Shown here: positions 22,750 through 36,237 of the stretch, one piece after another | Layout: each line of letters starts with the position of its first letter | How positions within the stretch are numbered: position 1 is the stretch's first letter | Origin: Alphaproteobacteria bacterium | GTDB lineage: Bacteria > Pseudomonadota > Alphaproteobacteria > UBA6615 | Length of the DNA: 37,060 nucleotides | Assembly: GCA_018666195.1 (NCBI GenBank) | Contig: JABJAG010000056.1 | Coordinates: 1 to 37,060 of the forward strand | Reading direction: 5' to 3' | The notes under the pieces: model-generated | The model's input: only the letters and a program-made list of their open reading frames with translations | Database searches by the model: none | What the model was told of the DNA's origin: nothing | Made by a program: the position numbers and the translations under genes

Positions 22750-25077
22750 ATGCTTGGAAAGCATGGGATCGCCCAGCCCGTTCGCCGGCGAGAAGATGTC
22801 AGGTTTCTGACTGGGAAAGGGCGATTCTCTGACGATGTTCGCTGTGATGGCCAGGTTTACGCAGCGTTTGTACGCTCACCGGTTGCCCATGGGACGATTG
22901 TGGGCATCGATGTGGCCACTGCCGCTGCCGCACCAGGCGTTGTTGCTGTCTTCGACGGTGATGATCTGGCCGAGGCAGGTGTTGGCCATATTGTGGCACG
23001 CTGGCCCAAATACCAGTCAGCACAAATCCAGTCTGCACGCCCGTTACACACTCCGCGACCCGGGTTGGCGCAAGGCAAGGTCAGGCATGTCGGTGAGGCT
23101 GTTGTTCTTGTTCTGGCCGAAACTCTGGCTCAGGCCCGTGATGCCGCGGATATGGTTGTTCTGGAAATTGAGGAACTGCCTGCCGCGGTCACAATTGCTG
23201 ATGCGGTTGCACCGGGCGCGCCCATAGTCTGGGACGATGCGCCGGGAAATATCGGTCTGGTCTGGCATCGTGGCGATAAGGAAGCGGCCAACGTTGCTTT
23301 CGCCGAAGCCTCTCATGTGTCTCAACTTTCCCTGGTTAACAATCGGCTGGTCGCAGCACCTTTGGAGCCCCGTACGAGTATTGCAGAGTGGGACGAAGAA
23401 GACGGACGCTTCACCCTTATCGCATCCAGTCAGGGTGTTCAGTACTTTATGGAGATCCTGTGTGAGCAGGTCTTCGACATTCCACGTACCGAGATGCGGG
23501 TGCTTACCGGCGATGTGGGCGGTGGTTTTGGCGTTAAAGAACAACCATTTCCTGAAGATATTGCGATCTTGTTTGCCGCGCGTGCGCTGAGGCAACCGGT
23601 CAAATGGACGGGCACGCGGTCCGAACACTTTTTAGGTGATTCCCATGCGCGCGATGCGGTGATCGACGCCTCGATTGCTCTTGATGCGGACGGGAACTTC
23701 CTGGCTCTGCGTGTCGCGGTCGACGATGCTATGGGCTCGTACTACGCCTGTAACGGTACGGGGATGCCGCTACGCAACATGCCCAATGGGCTGGCGCTGG
23801 TGTATCGAACGCCCGTCATAGATATCGATGTACGTCTCATTCTGACGCACACCAATTCTGTTGGACCCTATCGTGGGGCAGGGCGTGAGCAGGCGTCGTA
23901 TATCGTTGAAAGGCTGGTGGATCAGGCGGCACGAGAAACTGGGCGCGATCCGATCGAATTGCGCCGGCGTAACATGATCTCGCCGGATCAAATGCCATAC
24001 GCCACGCCTGTGGATCGAACCTATGATTCCGGCGAGTTCGAAGCGGTTCTCGATAAGACTGTGGAATTGGCTGATTGGGATGGATTTTCTGAACGTCGTG
24101 CCAAAAGCGAGCGGGCTGGAAAATTGCGGGGACGGGGCATCGCGTCCTATCTGGAGTGCATCGGTGGTTCACCCCATGAGGGCGCGAAGATTGAATTTCT
24201 AGATGACGGTACGGTTGACCTGGTTGTCGCAACCCAAAGCCAGGGCCAGGGACACGAAACGAGCTTTGTTCAGGTCATCGCCGAACGACTCGGATTGCCA
24301 TTTGAGGCAATAAATTTGCGTCAGGGCGACAGCGACATCGCACCACGCGGTATTGCAACCATTGCATCAAGGTCCATGACCATGGCCGGGTCTGCGATTG
24401 CTCTGACTTGTGATGCCGTGATCGAGAAAGGTCATGTGGCCGCCGCCCATTTGCTTGAAGCATCGGTAGTGGATATCGAATTTTCAAACGGTGAATTCCA
24501 AGTAAGAGGTACGGACCGGAAAATCCCGCTGCTTGATCTGGCCGTACAGGTTAAGGAGATTCTTGTTGAGGATGTTCCGACAAATTTGGATTCCTCAGAG
24601 GAGTTCGAGGCACCTGAGCAATATTTTCCAAACGGTTGTCATGTGTGTGAACTCGAAATCGACCCGGACACCGGAGTGGTGACGTTGGACCGCTACACTG
24701 CGATCGATGATTGCGGCATAGTAATCAATCCGCCGATCGTGCACGGCCAGGTGCATGGCGGGGTGATGCAGGGGATTGGGCAGGCCCTGATGGAGGAAAT
24801 CATCTATGACCGTGAGACAGGGCAACTCCTGACGGGTTCGTTCATGGATTACAGAATGCCCCGTGCTGTCGATCAGCCACAGATGCAGGTTGATTTCCAC
24901 GAGGTCCCGTCGCCAACAAACCCTCTAGGTGTGAAGGGCGTGGGCGAAGCGGGCATCGTTGGTGCTCTGCCAGCGATCTTCAACGCTCTGGCGGATGCTT
25001 TGGCTACGCGAGGCGCTGTTGTTGATTTTCAGATGCCAGCGACAGCCGAAAAGGTCTGGCGTGCGCTCAACCGTTGA
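22750..25077 (+). CDS. xanthine dehydrogenase/CO dehydrogenase-type molybdopterin-binding large subunit (orphan)
   Basis: 775 residues, full length for the molybdenum subunit. It opens with VRRREDVRFLTGKGRFSDDV (the aldehyde oxidase a/b hammerhead domain). The molybdopterin domains hold VGGGFGVKEQ, PYRGAGREQASY (374 onward) and the catalytic Glu733 in GVKGVGEAGIVGALPAI. The PYRGAGR loop resembles the so-called form II CoxL group and not the AYxCSFR loop of true CO dehydrogenase, so CO oxidation is unlikely. The FAD (medium) and 2Fe-2S (small) subunit genes that normally accompany it are not in the window. Substrate unknown; probably an aldehyde or N-heterocycle hydroxylase. Confidence 0.9.
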   Translation: MLGKHGIAQPVRRREDVRFLTGKGRFSDDVRCDGQVYAAFVRSPVAHGTIVGIDVATAAAAPGVVAVFDGDDLAEAGVGHIVARWPKYQSAQIQSARPLHTPRPGLAQGKVRHVGEAVVLVLAETLAQARDAADMVVLEIEELPAAVTIADAVAPGAPIVWDDAPGNIGLVWHRGDKEAANVAFAEASHVSQLSLVNNRLVAAPLEPRTSIAEWDEEDGRFTLIASSQGVQYFMEILCEQVFDIPRTEMRVLTGDVGGGFGVKEQPFPEDIAILFAARALRQPVKWTGTRSEHFLGDSHARDAVIDASIALDADGNFLALRVAVDDAMGSYYACNGTGMPLRNMPNGLALVYRTPVIDIDVRLILTHTNSVGPYRGAGREQASYIVERLVDQAARETGRDPIELRRRNMISPDQMPYATPVDRTYDSGEFEAVLDKTVELADWDGFSERRAKSERAGKLRGRGIASYLECIGGSPHEGAKIEFLDDGTVDLVVATQSQGQGHETSFVQVIAERLGLPFEAINLRQGDSDIAPRGIATIASRSMTMAGSAIALTCDAVIEKGHVAAAHLLEASVVDIEFSNGEFQVRGTDRKIPLLDLAVQVKEILVEDVPTNLDSSEEFEAPEQYFPNGCHVCELEIDPDTGVVTLDRYTAIDDCGIVINPPIVHGQVHGGVMQGIGQALMEEIIYDRETGQLLTGSFMDYRMPRAVDQPQMQVDFHEVPSPTNPLGVKGVGEAGIVGALPAIFNALADALATRGAVVDFQMPATAEKVWRALNR

Positions 25078-25121
25078 GCCTGACCGCTACACCCCCTAGG
25101 CTACACCCGATCGGGAGAGAG

Positions 25122-26042
25122 ATGTCTGAGATGGCGGATTTATATGCAAAGAGTTCAGGGATGAGCCCAGACGGGAATGTCGGCACCAAACGCGTGCGGG
25201 CGCGAGTGGAGCGTAACTATCGTCATATTGACGTGCGACCTTATGCGCCCAATCTCGGTGCGGAAATTCGCGGCCTGGACTTGGCTGAGGGGATGAGCGA
25301 AGCGCAGTTCGAAGAGGTACATCACGCCTATCTCGACAATCAGGTGCTATTTTTCAAGGAACAGTCACCCATTCCGCCGGGAACTCACATCGAAATAGCC
25401 AAGATGTTCGGGGAACTGCATTTTCACCCCGCCGCGCCGGGCAAGGATGGGTTTCCGGAAATATTTGAAATTCATGCTCACGCGGGATCGAAGATCGCGA
25501 ATGGCGAGTTCTGGCATTCAGACGTGTCCTGCGATGAAATTCCGCCTTTGGGCACCATGCTTCAGATTCATATTTTGCCAGATTGCGGCGGTGACACGAT
25601 GTTTGCTGACAGCTACGCGGCATGGGAAAGCCTGTCTGAGCCGATGCGTAACATGCTTGATGGACTACACGGTGTGCACGAGAGCGAGCATATTTATCGT
25701 GGCCGATACTCGGATCGTGGAATGGAAGACGAAGGGAAAGTCTATCCAAGCGCGATCCACCCCATAGCGAGGGTGCATCCGGAAACCGGGCGAAAGGCGC
25801 TTTACGTCAATCGGGCATTCACAACTGGCATCGCCGAGCTGGAGCCTGATGAAAGTTCCGCCGTGTTCGCGTTGCTGCTTGAACATGCAGAAAAGGTTGA
25901 ATTTCAGATACGGTTTCGCTGGGAAAAGAACGATATGGCGTTTTGGGACAATCGCTGCGTCATGCATCGTGCGCTTTGGGACTACTGGCCCGCTGAGCGT
26001 AAAGGCAATCGGGTAACGATCAAGGGTGATCGTCCAAGCTAA
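25122..26042 (+). CDS. TauD/TfdA-family Fe(II)/2-oxoglutarate dioxygenase
   Basis: 306 residues from the ATG preceded by GGGAGAG; a TTG overlapping the previous stop is the alternative start. The 2-His-1-carboxylate site is complete: His132 and Asp134 in FWHSDVS and His282 in VMHRALWDY. Arg297 in KGNRVTIKGD binds 2-oxoglutarate. The sequence YAPNLGAEIRGLDLAEGM is the usual family opening. It hydroxylates a small acid such as a sulfonate, phenoxyacid or alkyl sulfate, but the substrate is not predictable. It follows the Mo subunit by 44 bases, forming a three-gene oxidative operon. Confidence 0.92.
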   Translation: MSEMADLYAKSSGMSPDGNVGTKRVRARVERNYRHIDVRPYAPNLGAEIRGLDLAEGMSEAQFEEVHHAYLDNQVLFFKEQSPIPPGTHIEIAKMFGELHFHPAAPGKDGFPEIFEIHAHAGSKIANGEFWHSDVSCDEIPPLGTMLQIHILPDCGGDTMFADSYAAWESLSEPMRNMLDGLHGVHESEHIYRGRYSDRGMEDEGKVYPSAIHPIARVHPETGRKALYVNRAFTTGIAELEPDESSAVFALLLEHAEKVEFQIRFRWEKNDMAFWDNRCVMHRALWDYWPAERKGNRVTIKGDRPS

Positions 26043-26816: not shown

Positions 26817-28250
26817 CTAGAGCAAGCTACGGACAGTGCTGGAAGCTGGAATCTCGCTACCGCTGACATACGATTCGTGGTTCTGCTCAATCAATGTCTT
26901 GTCATAGAGATAGTTGACCATCATTCCGGCGGATTGCTCAAAACCCTTGGGGGACATGTCACCAAGCCAGTTGATGCTTTCAACACGCGCACCATTGCTC
27001 AGGTGGAAATGTGCGACTGAATCAAGCGCGGTGCCTGTCGACTCCCGACGCTGGTAAAGCAGATAGCCCGCGACGAGATGTGTCAAGATCGGCTCCATGA
27101 CCTCAGCAATGGCCGGGTCCAGATGCCAGTTGGTTCGATCAAGGATGGACTGCAATGCCGAATTATCGTCGGAAATGTCTCCAGCCACGGCACGCAATGC
27201 CTCTTCCTGCTCGTGATTGAGCAGTTCAGCCCCATCGGACATGCGACCATCGAGCCAGCGCCGAAATCCGGGGATAGGGGACAGTGTGGCAAATGTTTTG
27301 ACGTTTGGCAGACGCGCCGAAAGGCGCTCAACGACCTGCTTGATCAGGAAGTCACCAAAACTCACGCCTGAAAGGCCGCGCTGAGCGTTTGAGATGGAGT
27401 AGAAAATGGCGCTATCAGCCTGTTCCGGGTCCTTGATCGGCGCGGATTCATCCAGAAGCGTCTGCACGTTACGTGCAATGCCATTCACGAGAGCCACTTC
27501 GACGAAAATAAGCGGCTCATCGGGCATGGAAGGGTGGAAAAAGGCAAAGAAACGCCGGTCGGATTCCAGCCGGTTCTTCATGTCATTCCAGGACCGGATT
27601 TCATGCACAGCTTCGTAAGCGATCAGCTTTTCCAGCAAATCAGCTGGTGCGGCCCAGGTAATGCGGTGCAAAACCAGAAAACCAGCATCGAACCATGTCG
27701 AGAGCAGGTGCTTCAGGTCCGCATCGAGCGCGCGCAGTTCCGGGTTGTCTCGCAGGAGCCCTATAAGGTCGGCCCGAAGGTCAACAAGAAATTTAATTCC
27801 GTGTTCTAATCCGTTGAATTGACGAAATAATTTCATGCGTGGTGATTCAAGTCTCCCCCGCAATGCGGTGATCGCTTTTGCATAAGCGACGGGGTCATCA
27901 GACGTGTCCCGAACAGCATCCATCGACACATTAAGATGGGTGGGTTCAATGCCGTATTCGTCGTTCAGCAGCTGCATGAATCGCAAGCGACCTTCGTCAT
28001 TGAGGTCCAGGTAGCAGCGCGCCAAATCAGATGCATTGGAACGCGCAGAGGCTTCGCCACCACGCCCCGAAAGGCTGGCATCAATCTGCTGTTGCAAACG
28101 GGCCAGATCATCATTGGGAAGGTCGGGGCTGACGCTAAGTCCACCCCGGGATGTCAGGCTTGCGGCACTGTCGACCACATCGCGCAGTGCGCGCCGCAGC
28201 AAACCCCGTGTGCGACTAAGAAAACTGGTGGAAACTGTGGTATCGGACAT
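26817..28250 (-). CDS. malonyl-CoA decarboxylase
   Basis: 477 residues, matching bacterial MCD. The N-terminal helical domain is followed by the GNAT-like catalytic domain. That domain contains TLSPIPGFRRWL (Ser324), FHLSNGARVESINWLGD (His416) and MSPKGFEQSAGMMVNYLYD; Ser324 and His416 correspond by motif to the human catalytic Ser329 and His423. It converts malonyl-CoA to acetyl-CoA, allowing malonate use or control of malonyl-CoA levels. No matB or malonate transporter is adjacent. It lies about 4 kb from a type III polyketide synthase that would consume the same substrate, which may be coincidence. Confidence 0.95.
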   Translation of the reverse strand: MSDTTVSTSFLSRTRGLLRRALRDVVDSAASLTSRGGLSVSPDLPNDDLARLQQQIDASLSGRGGEASARSNASDLARCYLDLNDEGRLRFMQLLNDEYGIEPTHLNVSMDAVRDTSDDPVAYAKAITALRGRLESPRMKLFRQFNGLEHGIKFLVDLRADLIGLLRDNPELRALDADLKHLLSTWFDAGFLVLHRITWAAPADLLEKLIAYEAVHEIRSWNDMKNRLESDRRFFAFFHPSMPDEPLIFVEVALVNGIARNVQTLLDESAPIKDPEQADSAIFYSISNAQRGLSGVSFGDFLIKQVVERLSARLPNVKTFATLSPIPGFRRWLDGRMSDGAELLNHEQEEALRAVAGDISDDNSALQSILDRTNWHLDPAIAEVMEPILTHLVAGYLLYQRRESTGTALDSVAHFHLSNGARVESINWLGDMSPKGFEQSAGMMVNYLYDKTLIEQNHESYVSGSEIPASSTVRSLL

Positions 28251-29835: not shown

Positions 29836-30834
29836 TCAGCCGTCGGCGTTGGGCAGCAATACGACTTTGCCGTTGCGCTCACCTTGCATTGCGTGGGCAA
29901 CGGCGTCCTTGATCTTTGCAAGCGGGTAGGTGGCTTCGACCGCGGCGTGCATACGACCATCAGCGATATATCCAGCCAGTTCGTTATAGACCTTCAAGCG
30001 TTCCTCTGCCGTTGAGTATCTGCGTAGCCAGAGGGTGAGCCAGACGCCGGTGAGTGTGATTTCCCGGAAGATGATGTCATCAGGCCAGAGCTGGCATGGT
30101 TTCTTTGACAGCAGGCCGTAATTGGCGATCGTGCCACCGTCAACCAGGCAATCAGCAAGATGCTGGGTTGATTCGCCCGCAACGGCATCAATGGCGAGCT
30201 TAATATCGGCCCCACCAGTTGCTGCTTTCACGCGCTCGCCCAGGTCGGGGCCGTCAACGGCGCAAATATCTCCGCCGGCTTTGGCAATGAAGTCTTCGAG
30301 CCCGTCACGACGCACAACATTGACGGTTCTGAAGCCGTAGATTTTGGCCAGTTGCATGACATACTGCCCCACAGCTGAGTTGCCTGCGTTCTGGATCACC
30401 CAGTCTCCCGGCTCCAAATCAACAACCGTTTTGAGAAGCAGCCAAGAGGTTGGCGGATTGGCCATAATCATAGCCATCTGGATCGGATCTCCCTCACTGG
30501 GAAACTTCACTGCAATGTCCGCAGCTTTGACCACGACCTGTTGGCGCCAGGTCCCCGTATATGGGGGGATCATCACCCGGTCACCAACCTGGACGTTTGT
30601 CACGTTCTTTCCGACCGCCCCGATGATGCCAGTTCCTTCAGCCCCCGGGACCGCCGGAAGTTCTGGCTGAACACCATAGTTGCCCGACAGGGTCAGTAGG
30701 TGAGAAGGGTTGATCGCGGCGGCCTCTACATCAATCAGCGCATCGTCGTCGCCGACGGTTGCGGTTTCCATATTAATAAGCTCGACGACCTCAGACGGGA
30801 CACCTGTACGGGAGAACTGAACGGCTTTTTTCAT
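29836..30834 (-). CDS. MDR-family enoyl reductase/quinone oxidoreductase (MECR-like)
   Basis: 332-residue zinc-independent medium-chain dehydrogenase. The catalytic domain contains VPGAEGTGIIGAVGKNVTNV and TGTWRQQVVV. The cofactor domain contains IQNAGNSAVGQYVMQLAKIYG followed by VNVVRRDG, whose arginines point to NADPH. The NAxNSAVG and VNVVR motifs match mitochondrial trans-2-enoyl-CoA reductase relatives better than classical QOR. It probably reduces an enoyl thioester or quinone-like substrate. Downstream DM13 gene overlaps closely; the ABM-like gene is 33 bases upstream on the same strand. Confidence 0.9.
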   Translation of the reverse strand: MKKAVQFSRTGVPSEVVELINMETATVGDDDALIDVEAAAINPSHLLTLSGNYGVQPELPAVPGAEGTGIIGAVGKNVTNVQVGDRVMIPPYTGTWRQQVVVKAADIAVKFPSEGDPIQMAMIMANPPTSWLLLKTVVDLEPGDWVIQNAGNSAVGQYVMQLAKIYGFRTVNVVRRDGLEDFIAKAGGDICAVDGPDLGERVKAATGGADIKLAIDAVAGESTQHLADCLVDGGTIANYGLLSKKPCQLWPDDIIFREITLTGVWLTLWLRRYSTAEERLKVYNELAGYIADGRMHAAVEATYPLAKIKDAVAHAMQGERNGKVVLLPNADG

Positions 30835-30867: not shown

Positions 30868-31188
30868 TTAACTGGCTTTCTTGATTTCACCCTGTTCGTT
30901 GTCGACGATCACCGGGGTTTCGAAGATCGTGATATCAGGGTCAACGCCGTAGAGAGTCTTGATGGCTGTGCGCCAGGGACCGCCTTCGACATAGACTTTT
31001 TCTGCAGCTTCAAGGTTTTCCCATGTGTACACGCCACCACCGACACCGCGATCACCATCAAATACGAAGTTCTTTCGGATCAGGCCTGGCATGCCTTCAA
31101 ACTTGGGGGCCACGTTCTGCATGTTGGAGAATACTTCGTCACGTGTGGTGCCGTCTTTGACTTTGAACTGTACAAGTGCCGTAATCAT
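30868..31188 (-). CDS. ABM/YdhR-like dimeric alpha-beta barrel protein
   Basis: 106 residues from the ATG preceded by AGGAG; longer in-frame starts have no support. MITALVQFKVKDGTT is the first strand, and FEGMPGLIRKNFVFDGDRGVGGGVYTWEN is the core of the fold as seen in YdhR-type putative monooxygenases. GVDPDITIFETPVIVDN is the last strand. Members act as cofactor-free monooxygenases, haem degraders or cyclases. Nothing identifies the substrate. It is divergent from the EamA-polyketide synthase operon and shares its promoter region. Confidence 0.82.
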   Translation of the reverse strand: MITALVQFKVKDGTTRDEVFSNMQNVAPKFEGMPGLIRKNFVFDGDRGVGGGVYTWENLEAAEKVYVEGGPWRTAIKTLYGVDPDITIFETPVIVDNEQGEIKKAS

Positions 31189-31281: not shown

Positions 31282-32199
31282 TTGAGCAGTTCTGAAATCC
31301 GGCACCCGGTCTGGCTCACCCCCAATCTGCAGGGTATGGGCTGGATGCTGATCACCACGGTGCTCATCGTGATGATGCACACGATGATCAAGTTTCTCGC
31401 TGCCCAGGGGCTGCATCCGTTTGAAATCGGGTTTTTCCGCACGTTCTTCGGTTTTCCGGTGGTCGCGATCCTGTTTTGGAAATACGGGCGAGGAATTCTA
31501 AAAACCGATCAGATTAAGGGTCACGGGATCCGCTCCATCGGTCATGTGACCGCGATGATGATGTTTTTCCTCGGATTGACCACAACCCAGCTCGCAACCG
31601 CCAATTCGCTAGCCTTTACCGCGCCATTGTTTGCCACGGTACTGGCAGTGCTGATCCTGGGGGAGACCATTCGTTGGCGTCGCTGGGTTGCACTTGCGGT
31701 TGGCTTTGCGGGGGCCCTTGTGATTATTCGGCCCGGGATTATCGAGGTCGAAACAGGACCGCTGCTGGTGCTTGGTTCTTCAGCAATCTGGGGGGTGATC
31801 CTGATCGTCATCAAGTCACTGGGACGCCGGGACGCAACTCCGACCATCGTCGTCTACATGGTCATGTTCATGACCCCGCTTTCACTGATCCCGGCATTGT
31901 TCGTCTGGTCCTGGCCGACATTCGATCAGTACATGGTTCTGTTGTTGATGGGGGTGATGGGGACGACTGGGCATCTCACGCTTACTCAGGCTTTGCGTAT
32001 TGGGGATGCGGGCGTGGTGATGCCCGTCGATTTCTTCAAACTCATCTGGGCCGCGGGGTTTGGTTTTATGCTATTCGGCGAATTCCCCGATCTGTTTACC
32101 TGGCTCGGCGGGTTCATGATTTTCTCAAGCGCGACGTATGTTGCGCTGCGTGAGCGCGCCCTGGCGCGTGCGCGAAGTAAGGCTAGTAAGGACGTTTGA
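31282..32199 (+). CDS. DMT-superfamily EamA transporter (first copy)
   Basis: 305 residues with ten predicted helices in two EamA repeats. The first repeat ends in the conserved LGETIRWRRWVALAVGFAGALVIIRPG, and the second ends in FGEFPDLFTWLGGFMIFSS. I chose the TTG at 31282, about 10 bases after GGAG, because EamA proteins have a short cytosolic lead; ATG at 31336 is the alternative. Its stop overlaps the next ATG by one base (TGATG). Coupling to a polyketide synthase suggests it exports the product, although DMT proteins also move amino acids and nucleotides. Confidence 0.9.
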   Translation: MSSSEIRHPVWLTPNLQGMGWMLITTVLIVMMHTMIKFLAAQGLHPFEIGFFRTFFGFPVVAILFWKYGRGILKTDQIKGHGIRSIGHVTAMMMFFLGLTTTQLATANSLAFTAPLFATVLAVLILGETIRWRRWVALAVGFAGALVIIRPGIIEVETGPLLVLGSSAIWGVILIVIKSLGRRDATPTIVVYMVMFMTPLSLIPALFVWSWPTFDQYMVLLLMGVMGTTGHLTLTQALRIGDAGVVMPVDFFKLIWAAGFGFMLFGEFPDLFTWLGGFMIFSSATYVALRERALARARSKASKDV

Positions 32200-33245
32200 T
32201 GTTACCTCATGCACGTATCGCCGCCGTTGCGACCGCCTATCCGCCCTATGTTCTCGATCAGAACGAGGTCGTCGAACGCTCGCGGGAAATTTTTGCTCCC
32301 GACGTGCCGGGGTTTGAACGGTTCACCGATGCATATCGGAACGCCGCGATCGAAACCCGCCATTCCTGCGTGCCAATTGACTGGTATTCCAAGCCACACC
32401 CGTTCTCTGAACGAAATGACTTGTTCATCAAGAACGCCGTCGACCTTCTCGCCAAAGTCGCTGAGAAATTGTTCGCCGAAGCTGGAATAGAGGCAGCAGA
32501 TGTGGATGGCTTGGTTGTCGTCTCCACCACCGGCATCGCGACGCCAAGTCTCGACGCTCTGTTGCTTGAACGTCTGCCGTTTCGCCGCGATGTGCAGCGT
32601 TTGCCGATCTTTGGGCTGGGATGTGGTGGTGGGGTGACCGGGCTCGCGCGGGCGGCCCAGATGGCCATGACCCGGCCCGATTCTTGTGTCCTGTTTCTGG
32701 TCGTCGAGCTCTGTGGTCTGACCTTCCGGGTCAATGACATCTCCAAGAGCAATATCATCGCGACGGCTTTGTTTGGAGATGGCGCGGCCGGCGCGCTGCT
32801 CGGATGTGGACTTGAAGGTCCCGCCGTAAAGGCCTGGGGCGAACACACATGGGAAGACTCCCTCGACGTCATGGGCTGGGAAATCGGCGATGACGGACTG
32901 GGAGTGTTGTTTTCCCGGGATATTCCGCATCTGGTGCGCACGAAGCTTGGAGAACCGGCCAAACGGTTTCTCGAAGGGCAGGGACTGACCGTTGGTGACA
33001 TTGTGCGTAATGCCTGCCATCCCGGTGGGTCCAAGGTGCTGGACGCGCTGGAGGAACTCTACGAGCTTCCGGAGGGCGGGCTTGTTACCGCCCGCAAGGT
33101 GCTCCGCGAAAACGGCAATATGTCGGCAGCAACAGCGATGTTCGTACTGTCAGAAACCCTGAAAGATGGGGCTCCAGGGCCGTGGTTGATGTCCGCCCTG
33201 GGACCGGGCTTCACCGCGACGTTCGCGTTGCTGGAGGCAGATTGA
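32199..33245 (+). CDS. type III polyketide synthase (chalcone/stilbene synthase family)
   Basis: 348 residues, thiolase fold. The catalytic triad is complete: Cys142 in FGLGCGGGVTGLARAAQ, His274 in NACHPGG and Asn307 in GNMSAAT. The 33-residue His-Asn spacing is the same as in plant chalcone synthase. The GDGAAGALLG loop is also present. Such enzymes extend an acyl-CoA starter with malonyl-CoA and cyclise to pyrones, resorcinols or chalcone-like products. The next gene is an isoprenylcysteine-methyltransferase homologue, the arrangement of Bacillus bpsA-bpsB, so alkylpyrones are the best guess. I started at ATG 32199 rather than the TTG one codon earlier. Confidence 0.95.
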   Translation: MLPHARIAAVATAYPPYVLDQNEVVERSREIFAPDVPGFERFTDAYRNAAIETRHSCVPIDWYSKPHPFSERNDLFIKNAVDLLAKVAEKLFAEAGIEAADVDGLVVVSTTGIATPSLDALLLERLPFRRDVQRLPIFGLGCGGGVTGLARAAQMAMTRPDSCVLFLVVELCGLTFRVNDISKSNIIATALFGDGAAGALLGCGLEGPAVKAWGEHTWEDSLDVMGWEIGDDGLGVLFSRDIPHLVRTKLGEPAKRFLEGQGLTVGDIVRNACHPGGSKVLDALEELYELPEGGLVTARKVLRENGNMSAATAMFVLSETLKDGAPGPWLMSALGPGFTATFALLEAD

Positions 33246-33247
33246 GC

Positions 33248-33739
33248 ATGTGGTATTTCCTGGTTGGACTGATTGTCGTGCAACGCCTGATCGAACTGGT
33301 CATTGCGCGGATCAACACCAAACGCCTGCTGGCCGAGGGTGGGGTCGAGCACGGGGCAGGTCATTACCCGTTAATTGTCGTACTCCACGCCGCCTGGCTG
33401 TTCAGCCTGGTGTTGTTCCTGCCGGCGCAGGCGCCGATCAATCCGACATTGCTTGTCGTATTCATCGCCTTGCAACTCGGCCGGGTCTGGGTGCTGACGT
33501 CTCTCGGTCGGTACTGGACCACAAGAATAATTACGGTGCCCGGGCGACCGCTCGTTAAACGGGGACCATTTCGGTTTGTGCGCCATCCAAATTACCTGAT
33601 CGTCCAGGGTGAGATGATCGTGGTGCCGCTGATTGCCGGTGTGTGGGAGTTGGCGATATTCTTCGGAATTGCCAATGCCGTGGTTCTGGCGGTCCGAATT
33701 CGCGCCGAAGAGCGGGCGATTTCCGAGCGTCGCACCTAG
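33248..33739 (+). CDS. isoprenylcysteine carboxyl methyltransferase family protein, candidate alkylpyrone O-methyltransferase
   Basis: 163 residues, with four or five membrane helices. The ICMT signature is complete: LGRYWTTRIITVPG, then RGPFRFVRHPNYL (SAM and substrate pocket) and the C-terminal IRAEERAI with the conserved Glu pair. It begins 2 bases after the polyketide synthase stop. Bacteria lack prenylated CaaX proteins. The Bacillus homologue BpsB methylates alkylpyrones made by the neighbouring type III synthase, and the same role is inferred here from gene order. Confidence 0.9.
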   Translation: MWYFLVGLIVVQRLIELVIARINTKRLLAEGGVEHGAGHYPLIVVLHAAWLFSLVLFLPAQAPINPTLLVVFIALQLGRVWVLTSLGRYWTTRIITVPGRPLVKRGPFRFVRHPNYLIVQGEMIVVPLIAGVWELAIFFGIANAVVLAVRIRAEERAISERRT

Positions 33740-33851
33740 TCAGGCGTTTTTGGAACAGGTGGTGACCATTGTTGAGGCGGGTATATTGTTGCCTGCCATC
33801 GAAACCGGGCAATTTTGCTCTTAGATGAATTCCGGCGGGAGCCGTATCCGA

Positions 33852-34352
33852 ATGAGAACTTCGTTGTCCGGCCCTTTATCAAAGCGCGCCACTGGCATTA
33901 ATCGCTGGCTCGGACTGATTTTGCTGGTGGCACTGGTGGGCCTGGTCACCGGCCTTCTGCTGCCAGCCATTACCATTCGTTCGATGTTCTTGGCGCGCGA
34001 GTTTTCACTGGTCGAAAGCGTTTTTGCGTTTCTGGGTGAGGGTGACTGGTTCCTGTTTGCGATCACGTTCCTCTTTTCGATCGCTTTTCCCGTGGTGAAG
34101 ATCGTCACGGGTTTGCTGTTGTGGTTCTTCCTCGACGCAACGGGATCTTACGCGCGCCCTGTGCTGGGTTGGCTCGCGATGCTGTCCAAATGGTCGATGC
34201 TGGATGTATTCATAATCGCGCTGATCGTACTGGTGGCCGACGGGCGTTTGCTGTCCAGCGCGGATATTCAGATCGGAGCGATCGTGTTTTCCGGTGCGGT
34301 CCTGGTCTCTACCTGGGCCACAAAGCGCCTGAGCGAACTCGCCGGAAATTAG
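33852..34352 (+). CDS. paraquat-inducible protein A (PqiA)-like membrane protein
   Basis: 166 residues, with four helices matching a single PqiA domain. Conserved points are LGLILLVALVGLVTGLLLPAIT, a PVVKIVTGLLLWF helix and the signature LAMLSKWSMLDVFIIALIVL. E. coli PqiA has two such domains and works with PqiB/PqiC in lipid transport across the envelope; here only one domain exists and no MCE-domain partner is visible. I chose the ATG after GGGAG; an ATG nine codons upstream has no ribosome binding site. Its stop overlaps the convergent lipoprotein stop in TTAG. Confidence 0.85.
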   Translation: MRTSLSGPLSKRATGINRWLGLILLVALVGLVTGLLLPAITIRSMFLAREFSLVESVFAFLGEGDWFLFAITFLFSIAFPVVKIVTGLLLWFFLDATGSYARPVLGWLAMLSKWSMLDVFIIALIVLVADGRLLSSADIQIGAIVFSGAVLVSTWATKRLSELAGN

Positions 34353-35340: not shown

Positions 35341-36237
35341 ATGAACGTTCCTGTTTCCAGACCCGCTGATGCCCCGTTTCGGGGTGTCCTGATGATGTGC
35401 TTTGCCGTTGCTTGTTTCGCGGCGATGAACACATTCGTCAAGGAACTGCGCGTCCAGGAACTACCGGTTGTAGAGATCATCTGGGGACGCTACTTTTTCC
35501 ACACTATTTTGGTGCTGGCGCTGTTTCCAAAACGTATTCCCACGCTTCTGTCTGGCTCGGATAAGGGGCTGCAGATCTGCCGTTCGATCCTGGTTTTGTC
35601 GGCGACGGCCTGCATGTTCACTGCGGTCGGTTTCATGCCGCTGGCCGATGCCGTGGCGATTACCTTTATCGCCCCGTTGTTGATTACCGCACTGTCTGTT
35701 CCGTTTCTGGGTGAACGTGTCGGATTGCGTCGTTGGATCGCGGTCTGCGTCGGGTTTGCGGGTATGTTGGTGATAATCCGTCCCGGCGGCGGATTATTCC
35801 AGCCCGCAGCACTGCTGCCCATCGGGGTGACGGTCTTCTACGCGATGTATCAGATCATCACCCGGATGATCAGCCGCCGGACCGACCCGATTAATTCCGT
35901 GTTTTACACAGCGATTGTGGGCGGAATTTTGATGTCGGCAATTGTCCCGTTCTTCTGGCAAACCCCGACACTGGAACAATGGGGCATGATGCTGGCGGCG
36001 GGCCTTCTGGGCGGGCTCGGGCATTGGGCGATCATCATCGCCTATCAACGCGCAGAGGCTCCGCTGGTCGCGCCCTTTGCCTATACCGAACTCGTTTGGG
36101 CCACCATGCTCGGTCTCACCTTCTTTGGTGATTTTCCTGATTTGTGGACCTTGGTGGGGGCGGCCATTATCGCGGCCAGCGGGGTCTATATTTTGCAGCG
36201 CGAACGCCAACAACGGGCGAGCGCCAATCTGGTCTGA
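35341..36237 (+). CDS. DMT-superfamily EamA transporter (second copy)
   Basis: 298 residues with ten helices. The first repeat ends in LGERVGLRRWIAVCVGFAGMLVIIRPGG and the second in FGDFPDLWTLVGAAIIAASGVYIL. These closely parallel the EamA copy at 31282-32199, so the two are paralogues. There is no clear ribosome binding site; the initiating ATG gives a normal 15-residue cytosolic lead. Substrate unknown. It does not sit in an operon with neighbours on its strand. Confidence 0.9.
   Translation: MNVPVSRPADAPFRGVLMMCFAVACFAAMNTFVKELRVQELPVVEIIWGRYFFHTILVLALFPKRIPTLLSGSDKGLQICRSILVLSATACMFTAVGFMPLADAVAITFIAPLLITALSVPFLGERVGLRRWIAVCVGFAGMLVIIRPGGGLFQPAALLPIGVTVFYAMYQIITRMISRRTDPINSVFYTAIVGGILMSAIVPFFWQTPTLEQWGMMLAAGLLGGLGHWAIIIAYQRAEAPLVAPFAYTELVWATMLGLTFFGDFPDLWTLVGAAIIAASGVYILQRERQQRASANLV

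Follow-up and report, generated by a model that had tools for sequence, protein, structure and literature searches.

The Bacillus bpsA-bpsB operon encodes an alkylpyrone synthase and an O-methyltransferase whose products have been characterized, overexpression of BpsAB yielding triketide pyrones and, in minor quantity, resorcinols (PMC5686519). Other type III polyketide synthases (PKSs) include Pks11 of Mycobacterium tuberculosis, a methyl-branched alkylpyrone synthase, and the alphaproteobacterial RpsA of Rhodospirillum centenum, for which alkyl dimethylpyrones and/or resorcylic acids are described as products; in ArsB, replacement of Trp281 by Gly eliminated resorcinol formation and led to pyrones (PMC6274091). 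Type III PKS genes with transporters nearby have already been reported in cyanobacteria, in clusters that contain RND, MFS and ABC transporters (PMC8086630).

The locus analyzed here lies in a stretch of 37,060 nucleotides of alphaproteobacterial DNA, referred to below as the window, and comprises genes for an EamA transporter, a type III PKS and an ICMT-like methyltransferase (Table 1). An earlier note had described these three as tightly packed, with Cys142, His274 and Asn307 as the catalytic residues of the synthase, and the Pfam matches, motifs and sequence agree with this description. The transporter carries two EamA repeats above the Pfam cut-off (101.6 bits over two matched stretches, cut-off 28.2) and thus belongs to the EamA/DMT group; it starts at TTG 31282, and the equivalent position in genome G019 holds an ATG. 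The synthase is a type III PKS by its chalcone-synthase domains (Chal_sti_synt_N, 75.3 bits; Chal_sti_synt_C, 48.2 bits) and by the Cys-His-Asn triad, which is placed by the GLGC, ACHPGG and ENGN motifs (numbering from the ATG). The methyltransferase belongs to the ICMT superfamily, as its ICMT domain (91.4 bits, cut-off 24) and RHPNY...E motif indicate, and was rejected as a true protein-S-isoprenylcysteine O-methyltransferase, scoring 28.6 bits against NCBIfam NF040696 where at least 160 bits are required. The 1-base EamA/PKS overlap (TGATG) described earlier was confirmed, and the 2-base gap between PKS and methyltransferase holds if the latter starts at ATG 33248. An in-frame TTGA at 33242-33245 is, however, equivalent to the NTGA at which, in 60 of 74 relatives, the methyltransferase begins before the PKS has ended, and the true start may be TTG 33242, which would replace the gap by a 4-base overlap.

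Table 1. Features of the locus, in window coordinates
Feature	Coordinates	Strand	Details
Zinc-type alcohol/quinone oxidoreductase	29836..30834	-	Resident block; Pfam ADH
YdhR-like mono-oxygenase-fold protein	30868..31188	-	Divergent from EamA; resident block; Pfam ydhR
EamA/DMT transporter	31282..32199	+	305 aa (305 codons), TTG start to TGA; Pfam EamA
TGATG	32197..32201	+	EamA ends and PKS begins on the same base
Type III polyketide synthase, BpsA/Pks11-like	32199..33245	+	348 aa, ATG to TGA; Pfam
PKS stop/methyltransferase start	33242..33250	+	TTGA (possible 4-base overlap start), then ATG 33248
ICMT-like membrane methyltransferase, BpsB-like	33248..33739	+	163 aa (165 from TTG 33242); Pfam ICMT
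PqiA-like protein	33825..34352	+	Downstream flank of resident block; Pfam PqiA

Further features of the window were noted in passing. A further EamA transporter, paralogous to the first, is encoded 3 kb downstream (35341-36237) and belongs to the same conserved block in relatives. On the other side, about 4 kb from the PKS, a malonyl-CoA decarboxylase (26817-28250, minus strand) would be a competitor of the PKS for its extender unit, and the stretch 22750-26042 holds genes, assigned by eye from the sequence, for a xanthine-dehydrogenase-like large subunit and a TauD-like dioxygenase, with a 4-base overlap.

The Bacillus bpsA-bpsB operon shares gene families, gene order and a tight junction with the window pair. 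For the Bacillus velezensis pair, which we take to be BpsA-BpsB, the record has no PKS annotation; the N-terminally incomplete frame used is 39% identical to the window synthase over 296 aligned residues, the methyltransferase being 40% identical. No EamA or other transporter adjoins this pair in its record, where the neighbors are a dynamin-family gene and a YpbS-family gene, whereas the window pair has EamA upstream. In a class-wide sample of 385 alphaproteobacterial genomes, many of the comparison genomes being draft assemblies, 85 gave a synthase match, a few of these matches being distant type III PKSs. Eighty loci were fetched and 76 fell in the BpsA-like clade. The methyltransferase lies downstream of the PKS at 74 of the 76, directly at 73 and with a small ORF between at one; the contig ends 186 and 42 bases away from the remaining two loci, one of which holds a partial methyltransferase. 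Four distant type III PKSs (31-35%) are without it. The pair was also present at all 20 loci examined in a second family; one exception is the PKS of a Rhizobium beringeri plasmid, beside which no methyltransferase is annotated. This linkage, conserved class-wide, is more than chance. As judged by homology and gene order, a PKS followed by an ICMT-family methyltransferase with both homologous to the Bacillus proteins, the window pair is an ordinary, well-conserved BpsA-BpsB-type operon with a lineage-specific neighbor; homology, catalytic residues and the near-universal adjacency of the two genes support the BpsA/BpsB-like core proposed earlier. Separately, we observed that Sel1-repeat proteins come after the methyltransferase in several families (L060, L062, L070, L073, L075, L080, L107).

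All 76 clade members share the Cys-His-Asn triad. Pks11 is the best PDB match of the synthase (2.5e-56) and its closest solved structure, sharing the triad and the Trp at the cyclization position; it stems from another phylum, and the comparison covered the synthase. RpsA, likened to the window enzyme by its published description (PMC6274091), is like it an alphaproteobacterial type III PKS. Trp227 of the window enzyme sits at the position of Gly256 in chalcone synthase (CHS) and is likewise invariant in the clade (76/76). On the basis of a 9-residue spacing to Met293 (Phe265 in chalcone synthase), we infer that ArsB Trp281, the ArsB/ArsC cyclization switch, corresponds to Trp227 and hence to CHS 256. 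The Trp/Gly switch was nevertheless set aside as a means of telling pyrone from resorcinol: the pyrone-making BpsA and Pks11 also carry Trp at the position equivalent to Trp227, so that this residue, though invariant in the clade, does not separate the two product classes.

A rival reading, somewhat less likely than not, is that the pair makes a methylated alkylresorcinol, or a mixture of pyrone and resorcinol, as a membrane lipid needing no export. The invariant Trp maps to the very ArsB residue whose exchange for Gly led to pyrones, and resorcinols did appear beside the pyrones in the BpsAB overexpression. The Streptomyces enzymes SrsA-SrsB, which make phenolic lipids, provide a comparison case, and a Streptomyces pair followed by an FAD oxidoreductase-like frame encodes two proteins each about 40% identical to those of the window. 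On the other hand, BpsA and Pks11 make pyrones with the same Trp, the window's operon contains no SrsC-like oxidoreductase, and the equation of ArsB 281 with CHS 256 is of our own inferring. The proposal in the earlier note that a methylated alkylpyrone is made and then exported by the coupled DMT protein keeps its BpsA/BpsB-like core, while the residues do not establish an alkylpyrone and, as set out below, the dedicated exporter does not stand.

The window's own family alone has EamA upstream of the pair, in 12 of its 14 PKS-positive genomes, one of these (G012) being a weak case with EamA at 43% and ~130 bases upstream; in the remaining two PKS-positive members, G008 and G013, no EamA lies upstream of the pair. 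Most relatives with both EamA and PKS, across several genera, keep the 1-base overlap, and every sampled PKS-positive genome within the EamA+PKS clade keeps EamA. A search for EamA orthologues in 24 genomes, the same set as used for the family PKS search, revealed orthologues without PKS and methyltransferase in G018 (71%) and in G014, G015 and G016 (58-60%), the last three forming a genus that lacks the PKS. In G018 the block matches that of the window and is intact, running SDR, ADH, two YdhR-like genes, EamA, MDR, PqiA, lipoprotein-like, CMD-like and second EamA, the sole absence being the PKS-methyltransferase pair. At the junction an intact EamA is followed by a start codon and the first ~29 PKS codons, which then run into the MDR gene; this remnant (L161:4260-4514, minus strand) is 52-62% identical to the N-termini of its relatives. 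The junction is a deletion scar inside one contig, G018 itself being a MAG with ~7% contamination. The SDR-ADH-YdhR-EamA block is also kept without the pair in G014-G016, whose EamAs nest within those of PKS-positive genomes in the EamA tree (the three together 99/96, grouped with G010 92/85), which makes loss of the pair most likely in these genomes as well. Between G015 and G016, sisters that both lack the pair, EamA evolves at a dN/dS of 0.084 against 0.087-0.137 for PKS-positive pairs. Purifying selection is thus no weaker without the pair, which argues for an EamA function independent of the PKS. A search for the three-gene order across alphaproteobacteria had been proposed; the pair stays together there, and EamA precedes it in a single family and outlasts it in two lineages. 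A dedicated exporter gene would be restricted to the biosynthetic genes and lost together with them, and EamA is neither; on these comparisons it is probably not a pump made for the PKS product alone.

We consider the best explanation, with a probability of about 0.75, to be a BpsA-BpsB-type pair placed behind a resident EamA that serves a function of its own, independent of the PKS, and does not act as a dedicated exporter. The synthase would condense a fatty acyl starter with malonyl- and/or methylmalonyl-CoA to a short alkyl polyketide, which would cyclize to a pyrone and/or resorcinol, and the membrane methyltransferase would O-methylate this product to give a more hydrophobic lipid. The pair is probably co-transcribed and translationally coupled with the EamA directly upstream; EamA, with its presumed PKS-independent role, would be kept upon loss of the pair and may move the product opportunistically.

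Exporter genes adjoin the pair in other alphaproteobacteria as well. At three f40 loci and one f5 locus a DHA2-MFS gene has a 4-base overlap with the methyltransferase, and at two more f5 loci the DHA2-MFS gene comes after a fatty-acid-desaturase-family gene. In Phyllobacterium sp. 628, PKS, methyltransferase and MFS genes all follow one another with 4-base overlaps, and the gene order of Rhizobium sp. BG4 is identical; these two share with the window the PKS-methyltransferase core and a tightly overlapping transporter gene, which is however a DHA2 MFS placed downstream instead of an EamA placed upstream. On Sphingomonas plasmids an MFS gene adjoins the pair divergently, and in G074 a single-domain EamA of 145 aa (L110:4022-4456, minus strand) overlaps the methyltransferase by 4 bases. 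The cyanobacterial clusters, like the window locus, contain transporters but are larger and have other transporter families, and the text of that paper makes no mention of isoprenylcysteine methyltransferases (PMC8086630). Export of such products is thus plausible in some lineages, and the coupling of an exporter to the pair, put forward earlier as undescribed, is not new. As a side observation, two genes follow the methyltransferase at L091 and L099, one of the fatty-acid-desaturase family (AlkB-like) and one for a DHA2 MFS protein, possibly for a tailored, exported variant.

Several points run counter to the best explanation: conservation of the 1-base EamA-PKS overlap across several genera suggests selection for joint expression, the repeated joining of exporters to the pair in other lineages makes a need for transport plausible, no sampled PKS-positive genome of the EamA+PKS clade has lost EamA, and G018 is a MAG with some contamination. 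A resident, broad-substrate EamA might have been recruited to flip the methylated polyketide lipid or to export it, convergent with the MFS exporters elsewhere in alphaproteobacteria; we regard this as unlikely. A system of three genes with EamA as the dedicated exporter of a methylated alkylpyrone made by PKS and methyltransferase appears very doubtful. Its gene order and 1-base overlap are conserved across the window's family, and the DHA2-MFS genes and the G074 single-domain EamA are exporters coupled to the pair independently. Yet two lineages that lack PKS and methyltransferase keep an intact EamA under constraint, EamA is syntenic with the ADH-YdhR block irrespective of the PKS, and the great majority of PKS-methyltransferase operons have no EamA; the G074-type EamA, a real case of independent coupling there, was not found in 19 relatives (0/19) and is not conserved in its family. 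The EamA-only relatives lead us to reject a dedicated EamA exporter as the main explanation, and the earlier claim of one is contradicted by this comparative evidence. Horizontal capture of a three-gene cassette found no support, the EamA-associated PKSs forming one group confined to the window's family and EamA tracking the flanking ADH-YdhR block.

The BpsA-BpsB-type pair is widespread in alphaproteobacteria, where, outside the window's family, MFS exporters are the transporters that adjoin it time and again. Were EamA co-opted after all, these lipids would be secreted signals and not membrane components. Tight operon coupling alone does not make an adjacent transporter a dedicated exporter, and loss of synthase and methyltransferase with retention of the transporter in this family constitutes a natural experiment that directly tests exporter dedication.
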